Below the pieces are notes generated by a model. It was not told the origin of the DNA. It worked only from the letters and a program-made list of their open reading frames with translations, and did not search any database. DNA of 64,000 nt, from NCBI GenBank assembly GCA_903901875.1, contig CAIUSO010000055.1, positions 62,001-126,000 of the forward strand, in the 5' to 3' direction. This document shows positions 53,557 through 64,000 of this stretch, piece after piece. Numbering within the stretch: position 1 is the first letter of the stretch; each line of letters begins with the position of its first letter. A program made the translations under genes and the position numbers. The DNA is from an uncultured Geobacteraceae bacterium (lineage in GTDB: Bacteria > Desulfobacterota > Desulfuromonadia > Geobacterales > Pseudopelobacteraceae).

Positions 53557-54612
53557 ATGTTTGCAAAGGTGTTCAGCAGTGCCTTGATCGGAATTGATGC
53601 CATTGTCGTCGATGTTGAAGTTGATCTTGCCCCCGGACTGCCCGCCTTTGCCACCGTCGGACTCCCCGATGGCGCGGTCAAGGAGAGTAAGGACCGGGTC
53701 AAGGCGGCACTGAAAAACTCCGGTTACGACTTTCCGGTCCGCCGCATTACCGCCAATCTGGCCCCCGCCGATATCAAAAAGGAGGGGACCGCCTACGATC
53801 TGCCGATCTCCATCGGTATCCTCGCCGCAACCGGTATCATTGCGGGCCCTCTGCTCCATGCTTACATCCTGCTGGGTGAACTGTCACTGGATGGAGGCTT
53901 AAAGCCGATTCGGGGAGCACTCTCCATGGCGGTTGCCGCCAAGCGGGCCGGCCTCACCGGCCTGATCCTGCCGGCTGAGAACGCCCGGGAAGCGGCCGTG
54001 GTCGAGGGCATTGACGTCATCGGTGCCACCTCCCTCTCCCAGGTCGTCGAATTTCTCAGCGGCAGGGAACAGATCGAACCCTGCCGGGTTGACCTGCAGG
54101 CCCTCTTCACCAGCAGCAGCGACTACGGGGAGGATTTCAGCGAGGTCAAGGGGCAGGAGCATGCCAAGCGGGCCCTGGAAGTTGCCGCCAGCGGCGGTCA
54201 CAATCTGCTGATGATTGGCCCTCCCGGCTCAGGAAAAACCATGATCGCCCGCCGCATCCCGACCATTCTCCCCCAGATGTCATTTGACGAAGCCATCGAA
54301 ACCACCAAAATATTCAGCGTCAGCGGTATGTTGGAAAAGGAACGGGCCCTGCTGGCCATTCGCCCGTTCCGTGCTCCCCATCACACTATTTCCGATGTTG
54401 GCCTCATCGGTGGGGGGACGACGCCAAAACCGGGGGAGGTTTCTCTGGCTCACAACGGAGTTCTGTTTCTCGATGAGCTCCCCGAGTTCAAGAAAAATGT
54501 TCTGGAAGTGCTGCGGCAACCAATTGAAGACGGTCGAGTTACCATTTCCCGCTCCCTCGTTTCCCTCACCTATCCATCCCGCGTTATGTTGGTAGCGGCC
54601 ATGAACCCCTGT
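53557..54612 (+). pseudogene. comM: comM (YifB Mg-chelatase-like ATPase), disrupted after codon 352
   Basis: The first 352 codons are intact. They cover the N-terminal domain ([22 protein letters not shown], joined in the gene), Walker A (GPPGSGKT) and Walker B (VLFLDELPE). Conserved MNPC is then followed by GCAP where family members have PCG. From 54613 the sequence belongs to the integrated element, and the frame continues only to 54831 with unrelated residues. About 150 C-terminal residues are missing and should lie beyond the other end of the element. ComM is a branch-migration helicase for natural transformation, so the insertion probably disables it. Confidence 0.92.
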
Positions 54613-56135
54613 GGATGCGCCCCCTTTTTATTGTTGCCACCATCCGTGGGGGGTAAGTTGCCAAAATACTCTTTAAAATTAAAGGCAAAGAAGAACTCTA
54701 ACTCCTGTGTTTTGCCATCTTCCGTGAGTATTTCTTGCCCTACATCAACACGATTAAGCAAAACCCGAACAATCCGACGCCGGTTTTCTTCTGGAAGTTC
54801 ACACCACCCTGACGCAAGACTTTGCGCCTGACTTATTACATGTTGCCGACCCACCTCGTTCTGCCGTAACCGCACAAGCTCTACTTCCAGCCTTTCAATT
54901 TCAGCAACAATCTGTTGTCGCCTTTCTTCAAGCGGAGCATGCCGTTCACCAAACACTGATTTCGTAACCATTTTATCGGTGAAGAGTTCAAATAGAGAAT
55001 CAATCCTGTTCTGATTTTTGACCTTTTCAGCCTTCATCACTTTCAACTCGTCAGCTTTTTGAGCAAGTAAAGCTTCCGTGTCGGTTTCTGATTTCAATTC
55101 ATCTGGATTCACTACAATTTCATGTAATTTCGGCAGGAAGTGTTCCAAAAGCACGTCTTCGCTAATCTTGTTTTTACATGTAGTGCAGACGTAGCGCGGA
55201 ATTGTCATAGCCTTGTACGGTGCAACGTATAACTTCTTCCCACATTCGCACCGGAGTATTCCGCTGAATAAATACCGGCCTTCTTTCGGCACACCTTCCG
55301 AGTACATCTGTGGTCGTGACGCAAGGATATGCTGGACATTATCCCAAACTTCTTGCGTCAGGATAGGTTCAACTTCCATAGCAATCCATTCGCTTTTGTC
55401 TTTGAGTTCCCAGCTTTTCTTATTCCCTTTGCTCTTTGAATAATTCCGCTGGTAAGTCCCAGTGTAAATAGGATTCACCAAAAGACGCTTCATGCTTTTT
55501 GGCGTCCAGGCGGATTTGGCAGCATAATATCCTGCCTCATTCAGTAGCGTAATGACCCGCTTAATTTTCTGGTGTTCTATAAAGAGCTGGTATGCTTTCC
55601 TAACAATCACAGCTTTTTCTTCGTCTATGACCATGTTGTTCTTATCAGCCCATTTGTAGCCAAACGGTTGCTGACCGGAAATCTTCTTGCCCTCTTGCGC
55701 TCGTGTAATCATTCCAGCCGTGACCCGCGCAGACGTAAGCTCGCGTTCGTATTGTGCCATCGCGCCGGACAAGGCGAAGAACATCCTGCCGGAAGAAGTG
55801 TTCGTATCCAGTTGTCCGTCAATGGAATGAAGTGTTGCACCATACGCCCGGAAATGCGCTTCGATTTCCAGAAGTTCACGCAGGTTCCGCCCAAGTCGGC
55901 TCATAGATGAAAACACCAGACCTTTGATGACACCAGCTTCAACATCGGCAAACATCTTCATGCATTCCGCATTTTTAAGAACGGACTTTCCCGATACACC
56001 AGACAGGTCATATGTTTTAACGATTTTGTATTTCTGCTGACGACAGAACTCTTTTGCCCGTAATGCGTGAATTTCCGGGCTATCGGACTTTGCCTGGTCG
56101 TCAGTCGATACCCTTATCCATACGCCAATGTTCAT
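54570..56135 (-). CDS. Large serine recombinase (integrase)
   Basis: 521 residues. Catalytic domain about 1-150 with nucleophile Ser in RVSTDDQ and motifs [14 protein letters not shown] and [12 protein letters not shown]. The recombinase domain (about 160-260) and a zinc ribbon (CECGKKLYV...CTTC, about 300-330) are followed by a coiled coil (about 350-420). In the integrated state the last 13 codons (from QGFMAA to the stop at 54570) lie in comM DNA, so the C-terminus depends on the attachment site. Its start overlaps the stop of the XRE gene (TAATG). Confidence 0.93.
54601..54620. other. Left integration junction of the element in comM
   Basis: ATGAACCCCTGT (54601-54612) encodes the conserved comM motif MNPC; the following GGATGCGCC no longer fits it. 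The crossover therefore lies at or just after 54612. The serine recombinase frame crosses this point in the opposite direction. The right junction is outside the window. Confidence 0.7.
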
Positions 56136-56623
56136 TATTCTTCCCCTTGGTCGGCGATTTGTACCAATGCCTTAATCTTGTCACACAACCGAGGGTAGTC
56201 TTTATCTGAAGCAAGGTATTCAGTGTATGCCAGTGCAATTATTCCGGCAGCACTGGCCCCTGAGATGTTTGCATCACTATCTTCAATCTCATCCCAAAGC
56301 GCTTTTACAACGGATTTCAGCGCCTTGTTGTCGGTTGATGCCGACGTCGTAACGGGTTGGTCTGAAATTTTCATCTCTCCTTTCTCGCATAGAAACCAAT
56401 TGGCGTTGTAGCCCATTTCCACAAGTGCCACGATACCAACCGGTGATATCAAATGCTTTCCCGCTTCATAGCTCTGCATCATCGGAAGCGAAATTCCAAG
56501 TTCTGGTGCCATTTCAACTTGGGTCTTTTTTAGGGACTCACGGATTTGACGCAAGCGCGACCCAACTTCATGAAAAGGATGAATAATTTTAATTTTTGGT
56601 GTTTTGGATTTATCTTCCATCAT
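56135..56623 (-). CDS. XRE-family regulator of the element
   Basis: 162 residues. N-terminal helix-turn-helix (about 20-75: RLRQIRESLKKTQVEMAPEL, SLPMMQSYEAGKHLI) like CI-type and plasmid regulators; the C-terminal half is helical with no known domain. AAGGAGAC precedes the ATG pair. It is co-transcribed with the recombinase and probably represses the promoter at 56665-56693, where ATCATGTT occurs twice, 31 bases apart (inference). Confidence 0.88.
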   Translation of the reverse strand: MMEDKSKTPKIKIIHPFHEVGSRLRQIRESLKKTQVEMAPELGISLPMMQSYEAGKHLISPVGIVALVEMGYNANWFLCEKGEMKISDQPVTTSASTDNKALKSVVKALWDEIEDSDANISGASAAGIIALAYTEYLASDKDYPRLCDKIKALVQIADQGEE

Positions 56624-58272: not shown

Positions 58273-60252
58273 ATGATTCCATACTTGGTTTGTGAATTTA
58301 GTAGACCTACCGTCAGCAATTTAGTCAAAGAATGTTTTGGCTCCGATTTCCCGGACATATTCAAAAAAACACAGCTTGTATACCTTTTCCACTATCTAAA
58401 AGATTTAGGTGCTCAATCTGTTCTACTTGAGCGGGAATATATCGACAAGGATTATCTTGAGGATTACTCAAGGTACTATGTCAAATGTTTCAATAATGGT
58501 GGGCACAAGTGTGCGAGGCTGCACTTCTTCAACGATGTAATTGACCACTCTATACTCGATAATGTACTAAAATCAACCCCCAACTCAGCAGCGTATCAAG
58601 CAATATCAAAATCATACCTTGGCTTTATAGTCATAAAGCCCCTTCCACAAACCTTCATAGGCAAAACTTGTTTAAAACAATATTCTTCTCAGGGGGTCAA
58701 TGGCTCCAGTAATAAATTTCTTTTAAAACCATATGACGTAAACCTTTTTGGGATTAGGCTTCACGTTGATACTGTTGCGTTCCAAGAACAGGATAAAGTC
58801 GTGTCAGCTTGTGCTACTACAGCCATTTGGGCGGCCCTTCATGGTAGCCAAGAAAAATCAGTCCGACAAATTCCAGCTTGCAGTGAAATTACAACAAACG
58901 CAATAAACCATATAGACGGTTCGAGTAACCGCTTTCCAAACGACGGCTTGACAAACAAGCAAATTCTTCGGGCACTCGATGCAGAAGGGCTAAAGTATCA
59001 TAACGAGCCACTTGATAAAGTAAGCGCGAAGAGGTTTTTTGAGTCTGTTAAATATCACATAGATAGCGACATACCGTTGATTTTGGGCGTAACTATTCGT
59101 AAACCAGATGAGGAAGATGGTGGGCATGCAGTAACAATATTGGGATATGCAGAAAAAGATGAGCATAATGTATTGTATGTGCACGACGACCGTCTTGGCC
59201 CATTTGCAAAAGCGGTAATAACTGAAGTTGACGGCGGGTGTGAGCTAACTTTGCAGAGGAAAGATGACAATGGCCTGTGGAAAGACCCTCACGAATTCTT
59301 GATTCCCCAAACTCTTATCGTTCCAACGCATAAGAAGGTTCGAATATCTTATGTGTTACCAAGAAATACTTGTCAAATGCTGCTTACAGAATTTAAAAAA
59401 TGGCATTCTGAATTTGATACCCAAATAAGCCAAGAAGAAATAGATAAATACTACTCCTTCAGTCTAAAGCTGTGCGGAATTTCTGAACTTAAGAATTTAA
59501 TTTTTGCCTCTGATGTAACCCTTGCGAACGACAATAATGAACTGGCACTACTTGACAAAGCGCGGTTTTTGACTCACAGTTTTGCTCGATTCCAGTGGGT
59601 AGCAAACTTCAAAGTTAACGGAACACCAGCATTTAAGGTAATGTTTGACGCTACTGACATACCGCAGGGAAATGCAGTGTCATGGTTTTATGTTGAAAAC
59701 AGCAACTTTTCAAAATTACCCTTAAGTATATTAAAAAGTTATGCCAATTCAAAAATAAATATAACGGAACAACATTCAAAAAATTTCTTTAGTTCGTTGT
59801 TGAAGCATTTCAAAAATCCGGCTGACAATTACTTTGAATACTTGAGCACGACTTATGGTGACTTAAGAGCCCCAAAGTATATAAAAGAAGAAGAATGTAG
59901 TGACGGCAACATACAAGAAAATAGTTCCGTAATAGTTTACTATGATGCTGTAGATGATACTTTAGACGAAATCTATACTGAGTATTTAGATAAAATATTG
60001 ATATGGGCTATATCGAGTGATGGCGGTCTGCTTATAGGTGAAGACAAGGGGCATCCAACTCTTACGGGTTTCAAACCAGCAAGAATTTCTGGAGAGTTGA
60101 GAAAAGTTTCGGAAACATGGTTGATTAACTATAAATCAGGTCGATACAGTAGAGACTATGATTGCGTTGATAGCTATCTTTGTAATGCTCTGAATAAGTT
60201 CAAAAGTATCTTCTGGAAATCACGAGAAGCACTTGATTTTGAATTGTTATAG
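58273..60252 (+). CDS. Predicted papain/C39-like cysteine peptidase of unknown role
   Basis: 659 residues, no signal peptide or membrane helix. A central segment has the order expected for a papain-fold peptidase: Gln171/173 and Cys180 in QEQDKVVSACATTAIWAALH, His285 in DGGHAVTILGYAE, Asp305/306 in LYVHDDRLGPF. The first 160 and last 330 residues match no family I recognise. It sits in an AT-rich cargo slot between direct repeats, behind a small acidic gene, on the same element as a TIR-like gene. A defence or effector role is plausible but unproven. Confidence 0.65.
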   Translation: MIPYLVCEFSRPTVSNLVKECFGSDFPDIFKKTQLVYLFHYLKDLGAQSVLLEREYIDKDYLEDYSRYYVKCFNNGGHKCARLHFFNDVIDHSILDNVLKSTPNSAAYQAISKSYLGFIVIKPLPQTFIGKTCLKQYSSQGVNGSSNKFLLKPYDVNLFGIRLHVDTVAFQEQDKVVSACATTAIWAALHGSQEKSVRQIPACSEITTNAINHIDGSSNRFPNDGLTNKQILRALDAEGLKYHNEPLDKVSAKRFFESVKYHIDSDIPLILGVTIRKPDEEDGGHAVTILGYAEKDEHNVLYVHDDRLGPFAKAVITEVDGGCELTLQRKDDNGLWKDPHEFLIPQTLIVPTHKKVRISYVLPRNTCQMLLTEFKKWHSEFDTQISQEEIDKYYSFSLKLCGISELKNLIFASDVTLANDNNELALLDKARFLTHSFARFQWVANFKVNGTPAFKVMFDATDIPQGNAVSWFYVENSNFSKLPLSILKSYANSKINITEQHSKNFFSSLLKHFKNPADNYFEYLSTTYGDLRAPKYIKEEECSDGNIQENSSVIVYYDAVDDTLDEIYTEYLDKILIWAISSDGGLLIGEDKGHPTLTGFKPARISGELRKVSETWLINYKSGRYSRDYDCVDSYLCNALNKFKSIFWKSREALDFELL

Positions 60253-60461: not shown

Positions 60462-60489
60462 TTGACTCTTACCAGCAATATGCTATATT
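60462..60489 (+). promoter_or_regulatory. Sigma-70-type promoter upstream of a small ORF
   Basis: TTGACT (60462-60467), 16-base spacer, TATATT (60484-60489), the same layout as the cargo promoter. It drives a region with a hairpin (GGGAGG 60591-60596 with CCTCCC 60614-60619, inner GGTT/AACC) and a short ORF. Confidence 0.55.
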
Positions 60490-60652
60490 AAAGCATAATT
60501 TAACCGGGCAGGCTATTTCATGCATAGCGGTGTGACTGTGAACGTGACGAGGTAACCAACAAGAAAACTGATGTGTTAAGTGAAAAAATTGGGAGGATTG
60601 GTTAAAGAACCTTCCTCCCGTAAAAAATATTTATCTGAGAATGGAGCCGTTT

Positions 60653-60721: not shown

Positions 60722-60801
60722 TTGTCCCAAGATTTATCCTGACTATATATTTCTGTCATTTTTGTATACTGTAAATAGCTAATATCATTAAGATTTATCG
60801 C

Positions 60802-60829
60802 TTGACATGATTTTATTTTAGAGCATGCT
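60802..60829 (+). promoter_or_regulatory. Candidate promoter of the attenuator RNA
   Basis: Perfect -35 TTGACA (60802-60807) with a weak -10-like CATGCT (60824-60829) at 16 bases. The predicted start near 60836 coincides with the first paired base of the RNA structure. Confidence 0.4.
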
Positions 60830-60836
60830 GTGTCCT

Positions 60837-60983
60837 GCGAGAGAAACTGTAGGAAGAAACTTATCTATTAATTTAACAAAACATAAAGCTTTTGGTGTTG
60901 TACCAAAGCCCGCTCATAAGTCCCAACTTCCTACTTCTACTCTCGCAAATTAGAACCCAAGGACGGACTGAGCGGGTTTTTTA
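60837..60983 (+). ncRNA. Attenuator-like leader RNA upstream of the replication genes
   Basis: GCGAGAG (60837-60843) and GTAGGAAG (60849-60856) pair with CTCTCGC (60940-60946) and CTTCCTAC (60927-60934), with a symmetric 5x5 internal loop. An inner hairpin is formed by 60888-60896 with 60902-60909. Alternatively CCCGCTCA plus GTCC (60909-60923) pairs with GGACTGAGCGGG (60965-60976), followed by six T: an intrinsic terminator. The long stem and the terminator cross each other, so they are mutually exclusive or form a pseudoknot. This is the layout of a transcription attenuator controlling the downstream gene, whose ATG is 37 bases after the T-run. Confidence 0.65.
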
Positions 60984-61019
60984 TTGCCCGAAATTTAAAA
61001 ACAGAAAGGATTTAATATT

Positions 61020-61373
61020 ATGAACAAAGAAAACAATGCTTGTAATTGGATTTTGGACCAGACATTTGGCGACGTTAGAATCATCGATATATCCGGCGGA
61101 AATGTTATATCGGGGATGATTCTTTCAAGATTACTGGCAAATCTGATAAGTGCCGAAAATGAATGTGAAGAAATTCCGATTGATGAGAACTTTTATGAGC
61201 AATGTGTCTGGTTAAACAAACGTCAGATGCGTTTTGGTATTGAAAAACTCGAAATTCTTGGATTTGTTTCTTCTGTGAAAAACCCCAAAACGAAGATGCT
61301 TAAATGCAAAGTTAATGTGCCACTGGTTATTGAAAAAATAAACGAAATACCAAAAAAACATTATGCAATTTAA
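61020..61373 (+). CDS. 117-residue winged-helix-like protein of the replication module
   Basis: No firm family. The pattern GNVISGMILSRLLANLISAE ... YEQCVWLNKRQMRFGIEKLE ... KLEILGFVSSVKNP looks like the winged-helix segment of replication or plasmid proteins, and echoes the N-terminus of the next gene. AGAAAGGA precedes the ATG. It lies directly behind the attenuator RNA and 45 bases before the next gene. Confidence 0.6.
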   Translation: MNKENNACNWILDQTFGDVRIIDISGGNVISGMILSRLLANLISAENECEEIPIDENFYEQCVWLNKRQMRFGIEKLEILGFVSSVKNPKTKMLKCKVNVPLVIEKINEIPKKHYAI

Positions 61374-61421: not shown

Positions 61422-62609
61422 ATGGAATATAGGAAATTAAGGCGTGCCGTAGTTAAGGAAGAGCTGGTGGCTATCACTGGCGACTACCTAACCGCTATGA
61501 TATTAAATCAGTTCTTATACTGGTCGGAACGTGTAAAAGATTTTGATAAATTTACGCTTGAAGAACAACTACGTGCAGAACGTCATGGTATGGTCATTGA
61601 TATGCCATTAGCTCATGGCTGGATTTACAAAAAAGCTGAAGAACTTTCAGAAGAAATCCTAACATCCTCTTCGATACAGACAATCCGACGGCACATAGCC
61701 AGGCTGATTGAGTCAGGCTTCCTGTCAGAACGCTCCAATCCGTTATACAAATGGGATAGAACAATTCAGTATAGGGCGAATTTAACGGCTATTTCTGAAG
61801 CATTGCAGAGTAAAGGTTATCACCTTGACGGATATTCAAGACCGCTAACTGGCCGAAATATATCAACTTCCAAAATGGAAGATGGAGTTGCTGAAATGGA
61901 AGATGATTCTTCTAAAATGGAAGAGCAATACCAGAGATTACAATCAGAGACTACAAACAGAAAAGAAAAGACAGAGTCTCTGTCTCGCAACAATTTTGAA
62001 AATTATCCAAGTCAAAGCCAACCCCAGAGTCAAACCCCGACATCGACGAAAGTAATTTGTGATGAGGCATACGTTAGTGTCGTTGTCGGAAAATCCAAAT
62101 CAGATGCAACTGCCAAACGGAAAAAACCGCAAGGGGTTGGCGGAGATGGTTCCAGTTTTGCCGGTAACTGGAATTCTTCCGTCAATGTCCCTGGTTTGAG
62201 TTCTGAAGATGTGGCCGGGGTAGTTTCCCGTGTCACCACGGCCCTGAACCAGGCGATTGATTCCACGTTCCGCGAATCCGATTGCCAGAAACATATCAAA
62301 AAGTGCCTTGGCAATGGCATGACGGAAGCGGAATTAATGGCGGTAGTTGACCATGTAGCCGGTTGGCTCGGTGATGAACGACAGGAAGAATTCCTCGCCC
62401 CGTCTTTCATCTTCGGAAGCCGAGCTGGTGAATACGCCCGAAAATCCAAAAAATACGGTAAGAGCAAAGCTTCACGCACCAGTGGCAAGAAGCGTCAGTA
62501 TTACCTCGTTGACCCTGCCACCAACCCAGAAGCAGTTCTTGTTGACGAGGATGATATTCCAGTGGGAACGGATGCTTGGGACAAAGAAGGCAGGCGGATT
62601 GTTCTGTGA
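61422..62609 (+). CDS. Replication-type protein with winged-helix N-terminus (DnaD-like organisation)
   Basis: 395 residues from ATG 61422 (AAGGAG upstream). The N-terminal 130 residues (VVKEELVAITGDYLTAMILN, QFLYWSERVKDFDKF, GFLSERSNPLYKWDRTIQYR) resemble proteins common in integrative elements and phages of Firmicutes, where they act near replication functions. A low-complexity linker (about 145-210, many Ser/Gln) follows. The C-terminal region (about 250-340) is a helical domain of unknown type. It precedes an iteron-like array, as replication initiators often do. Firmicutes relationship and replication role are inferred. Confidence 0.65.
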   Translation: MEYRKLRRAVVKEELVAITGDYLTAMILNQFLYWSERVKDFDKFTLEEQLRAERHGMVIDMPLAHGWIYKKAEELSEEILTSSSIQTIRRHIARLIESGFLSERSNPLYKWDRTIQYRANLTAISEALQSKGYHLDGYSRPLTGRNISTSKMEDGVAEMEDDSSKMEEQYQRLQSETTNRKEKTESLSRNNFENYPSQSQPQSQTPTSTKVICDEAYVSVVVGKSKSDATAKRKKPQGVGGDGSSFAGNWNSSVNVPGLSSEDVAGVVSRVTTALNQAIDSTFRESDCQKHIKKCLGNGMTEAELMAVVDHVAGWLGDERQEEFLAPSFIFGSRAGEYARKSKKYGKSKASRTSGKKRQYYLVDPATNPEAVLVDEDDIPVGTDAWDKEGRRIVL

Positions 62610-62936: not shown

Positions 62937-63192
62937 TGTTTATTGCCGTTGCTGGGAACGGTTTCAATATCGGTGGAGATTGCAATACCGACGGTGGCCT
63001 TAAATATCGAAGCTGTTTCTTGCCGTTGGTGTGAATAGCGGTGTAGACCTGAAATATCGACGGAAGATGTGAATATCGACGTGTTTATTGAATTCAGCCG
63101 GAAATAGCGGTGTAGATTTGAAATAGTGACGTAAGGTTCAATAGCGAAGTTGTTTCTTGATTCCGACTGCAGAATAACGGTGCTGTTTCTTG
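62937..63192. repeat. Iteron-like ordered repeat array (candidate replication origin)
   Basis: Ten 11-base units of the form AATA-N-CG-N-N-G (such as AATATCGACGG, AATAGCGGTGT) start at 62966, 62984, 63003, 63034, 63053, 63072, 63103, 63122, 63140 and 63173. Spacings are 18, 19, 31, 19, 19, 31, 19, 18 and 33: triplets repeated every 68-70 bases. TGTTTMTTG marks each triplet boundary (62937, 63014, 63082, 63151, 63184). This resembles plasmid iterons behind rep genes. A minus-strand reading frame of 106 codons crosses the array (62930-63250), so a repetitive protein is an alternative. Confidence 0.7.
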
Positions 63193-63300
63193 ATTCAGAT
63201 GTTTCTTGGAATTTGCTTGCGATGCCCAGCCAGGCATCCCCCTTCTTCATAACTACCTACGACCCAAAAACAAGTTTATCTTTTCATTCCCCTTTATTTA

Positions 63301-64000
63301 TCAAATCACATCGTTCATATCAATCTGGTACCCTGAATTTTTCATCTCTTTCGCCAGTTTCATTTTCCACGCTTCGTGTTCATCAAATGCAACGTAGACC
63401 ACGCCGGAAATATCGTTCGGAGTTTCAACGTCACCTTTTACCAGAGCGCAGACATTATTTCGTTGAAGTTTAGCTATAAGGTAGCCATGTTCAAAGACAA
63501 CATTTTGCCTCGCTCTGCCACGTTGAACAGAACTGGCTACATTTTTACCACCAAGGTCACATGGAGAGTACAGAACAACCCCAAAACCGACGTTTGTATA
63601 AGATTCAATCTTTTCGATTATGGTCATTCCTGAACTGGCCTGCTCATGTAGAATTATCGGTTCAAATCCAATCTTTTCGATGAACCTTGCTACAGATACT
63701 TTCATTGCTTCTTCGTGCCCATGTACTATAAACACTTTACCATAGTCCATAGCAGACACTTTCTTACCAGCAGGTTCCGGGTTGCTGATTTTGCTTTCGG
63801 CGTTTTTTATCAGTTCCTTGGTAATATCAACAGAGTGTTTTTCATATTCGACAACATCTGCGCCAGAAATCATCATAAAAACGCCTTCTGCCATATGGTC
63901 ATATTCGTATTTTACAAGTTCGTCGGCAGTCTTTTCCGTTTGTTTAACAACGAGCCTCTTGATTTGACCCGATTGAAGAAAGTGTCCGTCAATCTGAAAC
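63301..64000 (-). CDS. TIR-like nucleotide-binding protein (partial; start outside window)
   Basis: The frame stays open to the window edge (about 233 residues visible, extending upstream of the first in-window ATG at 63894), so the gene is cut at its 5' end. The C-terminal domain (about the last 150 residues: KVFIVHGHEEAMKVSVARFI, LHEQASSGMTIIEKIESY, VLYSPCDLGG, ARQNVVFEHGYLIAKL) matches the TIR-like family known as CAP12/Pycsar-type effector TIR. Such domains cleave NAD or act in anti-phage signalling. The N-terminal part (helical) is unidentified. It is probably a defence gene of the element. Confidence 0.85.
   Translation of the reverse strand, partial: FQIDGHFLQSGQIKRLVVKQTEKTADELVKYEYDHMAEGVFMMISGADVVEYEKHSVDITKELIKNAESKISNPEPAGKKVSAMDYGKVFIVHGHEEAMKVSVARFIEKIGFEPIILHEQASSGMTIIEKIESYTNVGFGVVLYSPCDLGGKNVASSVQRGRARQNVVFEHGYLIAKLQRNNVCALVKGDVETPNDISGVVYVAFDEHEAWKMKLAKEMKNSGYQIDMNDVI

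Follow-up and report, generated by a model that had tools for sequence, protein, structure and literature searches.

What decides whether the replication genes of an integrated element are transcribed, and can the RNA that precedes them serve as the switch? The question is raised by a leader in a 64,000-nucleotide (nt) stretch of contig CAIUSO010000055.1 from an uncultured Geobacteraceae bacterium, the whole of which is called the window below. The leader is flanked on one side by a C39-peptidase-like gene (58273-60252) and on the other by the orf117-rep operon, in which orf117 (61020-61373, plus strand) is the first gene and rep (61422-62609, plus strand) encodes a predicted replication initiation protein of 395 amino acids (aa). 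Based on folding analyses, shuffled controls and comparisons to the leaders of Rep relatives, we propose that the leader of this operon acts as a transcription attenuator, a reading that we place just above even chances. The leader RNA is probably an on/off switch for replication.

A long stem and a terminator that cross

Two plus-strand helices, identified from sequence, fold and shuffle tests, make up the core of the leader. The long stem consists of an outer helix of 8 base pairs (bp) (TGCGAGAG/CTCTCGCA, 60836-60843/60940-60947) and an inner helix of 8 bp (GTAGGAAG/CTTCCTAC, 60849-60856/60927-60934), its 5' arms spanning 60836-60856 and its 3' arms 60927-60947. The terminator pairs 12 bp (AAAGCCCGCTCA/TGAGCGGGTTTT, 60905-60916/60969-60980) and is followed by TTATT, the 3' arm and U tract together occupying 60969-60985; its hairpin energy is -25.1 to -26.1 kcal/mol, its loop measures 52 nt and it ends ~35-40 nt 5' of orf117. 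A preliminary description of this DNA had the parts largely right, in that the two-part stem is borne out at 8+8 instead of 7+8 bp, with coordinates correct to within one base, and the 12-bp terminator is present. It had also stated that the two structures share sequence, allowing only one to form. This does not hold for the core helices, which have no nucleotide in common and instead cross in the order a-b-a'-b', separated by gaps of 48, 10 and 21 nt between the four arms, with the loop of each holding an arm of the other. Helix exclusivity is plausible from the crossing layout, and extra pairs of the predicted fold (ACUUAU/AUAAGU and AGC/GCU) use bases beside or within the terminator arm. 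A small hairpin with one bulge (GCTTTTGGT-GTTGT-ACCAAAGC, 60888-60909, plus strand) is located inside the long-stem loop, its final bases overlapping the A-rich beginning of the terminator 5' arm; read from the minus strand, the same segment gives a hairpin of -7.3 kcal/mol and then a weak T tract.

The stem and terminator structures are real. The 166-nt fold has a z score of -3.7 and is matched by none of 200 shuffles, and none of 3000 dinucleotide shuffles of a 247-nt region attains its score for crossing helices plus U tract. With the terminator held fixed and the rest shuffled, an equally good two-part stem arises once in 4000 and an equally good single crossing helix in 3 of 400 shuffles. 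By raw crossing score the region ranks only second among 1594 scanning windows of the GC-richer 64 kilobases (kb), as GC-rich DNA yields strong helices anyway, and the case therefore rests on the composition-matched controls.

The order of folding fits a switch. In minimum-energy folds of growing chains the long stem is closed by ~60946, before the terminator 3' arm begins at 60969, and in the full RNA it prevails at -37.3 kcal/mol, with an outer pair probability of 0.998 among nested folds. When 60837-60857 is blocked, the minimum-energy fold switches to the terminator (-29.3 kcal/mol). The sequences, the non-random pairing, the folding order and the fold switch upon blocking of the 5' arms are the observed parts of the attenuation model.

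A putative promoter (TTGACA-16 nt-CATGCT, 60802-60829, plus strand, matrix score 8.8) combines a perfect -35 element (60802-60807) with a poor -10 element (CATGCT, 60824-60829), and its predicted start at 60836 coincides with base one of the stem, in agreement with the preliminary description. Across the window, scores of at least 9 occur 0.2 times and scores of at least 8 occur 0.6 times per kb per strand. A consensus scan listed neither this promoter nor the terminator, the scan being limited to loops of 3-8 nt whereas the terminator loop has 52 nt. Further upstream on the plus strand, a stronger promoter-like site (TTGACT-16-TATATT with TG before the -10, 60462-60489, score 11.9, also found by the consensus scan) would feed the leader as well, and a third one is present at 60722-60751 (score 8.8). 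Following the terminator are weak plus-strand sites at background level, at 60994-61021 (score 7.0) and 61054-61081 (score 7.7), with starts at 61028 and 61088 inside orf117. Since the sole promoter-like site between the terminator and orf117 would start at 61028, within the gene, orf117 would depend on readthrough. As a separate observation, the minus strand harbors a terminator-like hairpin at 60583-60619 (GGGAGGAAGGTT-ctt-TAACCAATCCTCCC, then AATTTTTT), ~95 bases past the stronger plus-strand site at 60462-60489 and positioned as though it were the terminus of an antisense RNA; the promoter scan gave no convincing promoter for it.

Reading frames offer little in the leader itself, as 60837-61019 contains no ATG. 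A 42-codon ATG frame from the frame scan (60825-60953, plus strand) starts 11 nt before the predicted RNA start, overlaps the whole stem and stops ~15 nt before the terminator 3' arm. Its ribosome site is unclear by eye, and it could supply a leader peptide only to transcripts from upstream promoters, for which translation-coupled control is possible. A TTG frame of 43 codons (60892-61023) shows no clear ribosome site by eye.

Combining these elements, we propose the following mechanism. RNA polymerase would start at ~60836, and the two-part stem would close once 60947 leaves the polymerase, holding the terminator 5' arm in its loop. By default the terminator would then fail or be slowed, and the operon would be read through. 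Capture of the stem 5' arms by an RNA or a protein would free the terminator 5' arm to pair with its 3' arm, and transcription would stop near 60985, ~35 nt before orf117. Transcription of the leader, use of this promoter, exclusivity of the helices, termination in vivo and the trigger are what we infer here. The fold logic thus fits an attenuator, with the stem forming first and blocking leading to the terminator, while exclusivity through shared sequence is not borne out for the core helices.

Rep relatives and their leaders

Close homologues of the leader itself were not detected. At the DNA level, 3 of 141 genomes of the order gave a match, namely the window's own and two chance matches of 36-37 nt. 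A plasmid search with the rep gene included returned one match, in rep, and none in the leader, and the leader alone, searched against phages and plasmids at E up to 1, gave only short terminator-like or chance matches. A covariance model (R1) built from one sequence, and hence a weak one whose negatives exclude only close relatives, found no leader homologue in 33, 8 and 42 sources (the window being within the first and last), in the contig of a distant Rep relative (L077) or in 8 genomes holding Rep relatives. In 138 genomes of the order it recovered the window's own leader and four chance-like matches at E 0.12-0.9. In 398 genomes of the phylum of G528 (Bacillota, source of L013) it gave 4 matches at a per-genome E <= 0.05, whereas chance alone should yield ~20. 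The Rfam 15 covariance models gave no match to the leader at gathering score or up to E = 1, and tRNA matches only on the loci of 15 relatives. Two other kinds of RNA, that of a type III toxin-antitoxin system and that of a retron, were considered and dropped, as neither tandem repeats nor an adjacent reverse transcriptase was seen on reading.

Rep, in contrast to its leader, has relatives elsewhere. Its N-terminal domain occurs at 18 loci in Bacillota genomes, all titled as Bacillota lineages, by a pattern scan that catches only fairly close relatives, in 17 plasmid records (16 from Bacillota and one from a cyanobacterium) and at 5 loci in viral contigs, or 48 with a profile; 50,697 phage records gave no match at E 1e-5. 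In the host phylum the domain is present in 1 of 395 genomes, the window's own, and with the profile in 2 of 395, the own one and a marginal one. Within the host order, whole Rep matches 2 of 138 genomes (1 of 138 with the profile), the own one and another in which the match covers the last 42 residues. That match (L011, G116:C1:3360591-3360716, host family) falls in a 310-codon frame at 52% identity and suggests a conserved C-terminal contact motif. Because Rep is common to Bacillota, plasmid and viral loci and rare in the host phylum, the element probably came from elsewhere.

Crossing helices are not a mark of the whole Rep family. Thirty-one leader regions were examined, including that of the window, and 22 of them have a terminator-like hairpin; with the terminator fixed, the only ones to stand out are the window (3/400), L077 (0/400) and L094 (4/400), the leader of L094 lying inside an upstream reading frame. 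The idea of a family-wide trait failed on this test, as did L007 and L099, which had appeared to cross by eye, and L006 has no terminator-like hairpin. By eye, L077 displays the same order as the window, with TTGACA first, then, close to the predicted start, a stem of 12 bp that encloses the terminator 5' arm, and last the terminator and rep. Its crossing score is reached by 0 of 120 shuffles, and its stem, given the terminator, by 7 of 4000. A different arrangement is found at L019, L052, L056, L057, L059 and L007, where the ribosome site is part of the hairpin 3' arm, with a U tract and then the start codon after it.

Two multi-sequence leader groups consist of sequences too alike for covariation by eye, a loop inversion excepted. 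In viral contigs, the 16-nt loop of the leader hairpin before rep (positions 2847-2862 of each locus) is exactly reverse-complemented between L065, L066, L067 and L068 on one side and L071 and L072 on the other, whereas the arms of 12 bp and almost the entire remainder of the aligned leader are identical. Over the surrounding 1.2 kb the two groups have 89-93% identity. The inversion looks like a switch of antisense specificity. A literature search at listing level gave nothing obviously on topic for loop inversion in rep leaders.

The upstream regions of Rep relatives were also surveyed for antisense units, defined as a minus-strand promoter and terminator 50-180 nt apart. Clustering, from which L005, L009, L021, L023, L030, L058, L095, L102 and L108 were left out, yielded 45 groups with one representative each, 26 being free leaders and 19 located behind or within an upstream frame; for many loci the start of the protein match served as gene start. 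Units are found opposite 9 of the 26 free leaders as compared to 11 of 312 shuffles, and opposite 0 of the 19 others (shuffles, 5/228), while control regions upstream of other genes at the same loci have them in 5 of 84 cases. The test was designed after the pattern had been seen by eye in several leaders and was not blind, the real-DNA control being added later. RNA control of rep is probably frequent among Rep relatives, and this makes such control likelier in the window as well, without proving it. In L077, the minus strand inside the leader includes a strong promoter match (TTGACA-16-GATAAT); an antisense RNA is less certain there than the count implies, the terminator paired with this promoter being a hairpin further upstream. 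For the window the antisense-unit test is negative, and the highest-scoring minus-strand promoters within the leader reach 5.8 and 6.2, values at background (3-7 times per kb per strand). The antisense transcript anticipated over 60837-60946 accordingly found no backing in the sequence-based promoter and unit scans of the minus strand.

Attenuation and its alternatives

Several points weigh against attenuation. The leader has no detected homologue and hence no covariation support, its terminator loop of 52 nt is long for an intrinsic terminator, and the -10 element of the proposed promoter is poor. The core helices, having no shared base, could coexist as a pseudoknot, and the terminator would then be unconditional. 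The full-length L077 leader favors the terminator fold (-47.5), unlike that of the window, and a strong crossing stem given the terminator is not a family trait (3 of 22 regions). Furthermore, the 42-codon ATG frame runs across the stem, and rep alone could be fed by the weak sites at 60994-61021 and 61054-61081, bypassing readthrough. Of these, coexistence of the helices leads to a distinct picture, in which the leader gives rise to a pseudoknotted, always-terminated small RNA, or is a simple terminator whose 5' stem is ornamental, and rep is expressed by leakage. The absence of shared bases, the 48, 10 and 21 nt that leave the arms room to cross and the stability of the long stem among nested folds are all compatible with this; the nested fold, however, takes bases of the terminator arm, and we regard coexistence as unlikely, while granting it real weight. 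Alternatively, the terminator may be an ordinary insulator against upstream transcripts, the stem a product of chance and the rep promoter located after the terminator. The three promoter-like sites upstream, the two weak ones that could feed rep, the poor -10 and the similar raw crossing scores of other GC-rich windows would all be accommodated. Yet chance is at odds with the composition-matched shuffles (0/3000, and 1/4000 for the stem given the terminator), and an insulator would silence orf117, as the sites after the terminator start inside this gene, which together render insulation rather improbable.

The remaining alternatives concern the trigger. In antisense-driven attenuation of the pT181 and pIP501 kind, a short minus-strand RNA would pair with the nascent leader and induce the terminator. 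The excess of antisense units opposite free leaders over shuffles, other leaders and control regions, together with the minus-strand promoter of L077, favors such control, although the supporting test was designed after the pattern was seen, and the window has neither a unit nor a minus-strand promoter above background. Moreover, an RNA from one of the two best minus-strand promoters, with its start at ~61010, would presumably span the two arms of the terminator as well and thereby prevent termination. Antisense control is for these reasons a minority reading for the window, and an unlikely one. Instead, the trigger could lie in sensing of the leader by a ligand, by a protein or by a translating ribosome, be it in riboswitch-like fashion, through autoregulation by orf117 or Rep, or via a leader peptide. 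The winged-helix-like character of the first gene product, the ATG frame that spans the whole stem and the failure to find an antisense unit in the window are in line with sensing, but the leader lacks an Rfam match, and the frame opens upstream of the predicted RNA start with no clear ribosome site by eye, leaving sensing improbable on the present evidence. Attenuation by the crossing stem, with an RNA or a protein as the captor of its 5' arms, is hence the reading that we retain.

The element, known systems and implications

The sequence indicates that a serine-integrase element splits comM. The integrase (54570-56135, family matches) adjoins a truncated comM-type Mg-chelatase gene (53557-54831, family matches) whose Mg_chelatase domain ends at position 163 of 207, in agreement with the integrated element of the preliminary description. 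A search for the missing C-terminal half of comM, using a query from another genome and run without positive control, returned nothing in the window's own assembly. In G096, a genome of the same genus, a different element is found at the complementary comM C-terminal half (G096:C170; Mg_chelatase 155-205, Mg_chelatase_C), with a TrwC-type relaxase and a C39-like protein 82% identical to that of the window. The C39-peptidase-like protein of the window (659 aa) is matched in 13 of the 138 genomes searched in the order, its own included. An XRE-type gene, assigned by domain match, lies 4 kb from the leader (56135-56623, minus strand). A CAP12/Pycsar TIR effector domain (9.6e-38 for the in-window part) occurs in a protein of 278 aa (63301-63999, minus strand, continuing past the window end), whose gene probably serves anti-phage defence and belongs either to the element or to its surroundings.

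The replication module predicted downstream of the leader is upheld by family matches of Rep to PHROG and, barely above the cut-off, to Phg_2220_C. Rep matches phrog_428 (replication initiation, 5.5e-21) and the DnaD-like helicase loader phrog_6493 (3.6e-14), its top PHROG match, phrog_22444, having no function given; judged by these similarities and its relatives, rep appears to encode a phage/plasmid-type replication initiator. The leader is thus that of an initiator operon, as had been described, with the difference that the first gene is orf117 and not rep. The 117-aa product of orf117, which shows 17-26% identity to Rep N domains in alignments, is putatively a distant relative of the N-terminal domain of Rep or a shortened paralogue of it; its model (pLDDT 70) suggests a winged-helix-like order of elements. 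Compared with PDB structures, this model had no match at E <= 0.001 and 837 in all up to E = 10; domain-family and PHROG searches yielded no family match, and searches of viral contigs, plasmids and phages no relatives. Following rep, a repeat search detected degenerate direct repeats at 62966-63199 (AATA-G/T-CG..., with AATAGCGGTGTA / AATATCGACGGA and TTTCTTG), possible iterons of a replication origin.

In a few Gram-positive plasmids, rep genes are known to be controlled by attenuation. According to PMC5703833, an upstream sequence in the pT181 repC attenuator forms a competing structure that leads to readthrough, and a terminator-like hairpin precedes the first gene. The window resembles this system (RNAI, pre-emptor, stem-loop IV) in having a leader of replication genes, a terminator-like hairpin and an upstream structure that may compete with it. 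It differs in that the long stem, which is non-random, encloses and crosses the terminator 5' arm instead of sharing sequence with it; in that the terminator ends ~40 nt before the start codon; and in that sequence scans detected no antisense RNA gene. Conditional termination before the rep gene is likewise described, in PMC4981023, for the repR leader of pIP501 and Inc18 plasmids (RNAIII of 136 nt, CopR), to which the window is alike in its leader with a terminator before rep. Unlike in pIP501, the window has no minus-strand promoter above background and no Cop-like gene directly upstream of the leader, its Rep belongs to a different family and the element is integrated. Among the features typical of both plasmids, the window thus has the initiator-gene leader, with orf117 intervening, and, by sequence, the terminator between promoter and first gene. 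For pSK41, PMC5703833 reports a Rep of DnaD-like character and control by leader RNA. The DnaD-like Rep of the window (phrog_6493) and its leader RNA recall this RepA_N leader with its RNAI, whereas the hairpin of the window is terminator-like and not a ribosome-site trap; the relatives with the ribosome site in the hairpin, L056, L057 and L059 among them, are close to pT181 and pSK41 as portrayed there (PMC5703833). No RepA_N Pfam match was obtained for Rep of the window (E up to 0.01) or nine relatives (E up to 0.1).

In titles and the starts of abstracts, with full texts mostly beyond reach, we found neither a description of RNA control for this Rep family nor a crossing attenuator before rep of an integrated element. 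The kind of control is known, then, and the crossing layout and the host element are less usual. Tentatively, and with considerable doubt, a broad group of winged-helix, DnaD-like Rep proteins of phages, plasmids and integrated elements may be under leader-RNA control, in some lineages through an antisense RNA with loop inversion changing its specificity (L065 versus L071), and in others (the window and L077) through a crossing-helix attenuator, whose stem begins at base one of the transcript and, without pairing to the terminator 5' arm, locks it topologically.

Should attenuation hold true here and extend to phage-type initiators, mobile elements would use leader RNAs to control replication more widely than is now established, including in a host phylum that hardly has Rep proteins of this kind, and the same control would serve elements that need silence while integrated. 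The crossing layout represents a simple, testable attenuator design, and the antisense loops of the relatives could serve as a code for copy-number compatibility that can be read from sequence.
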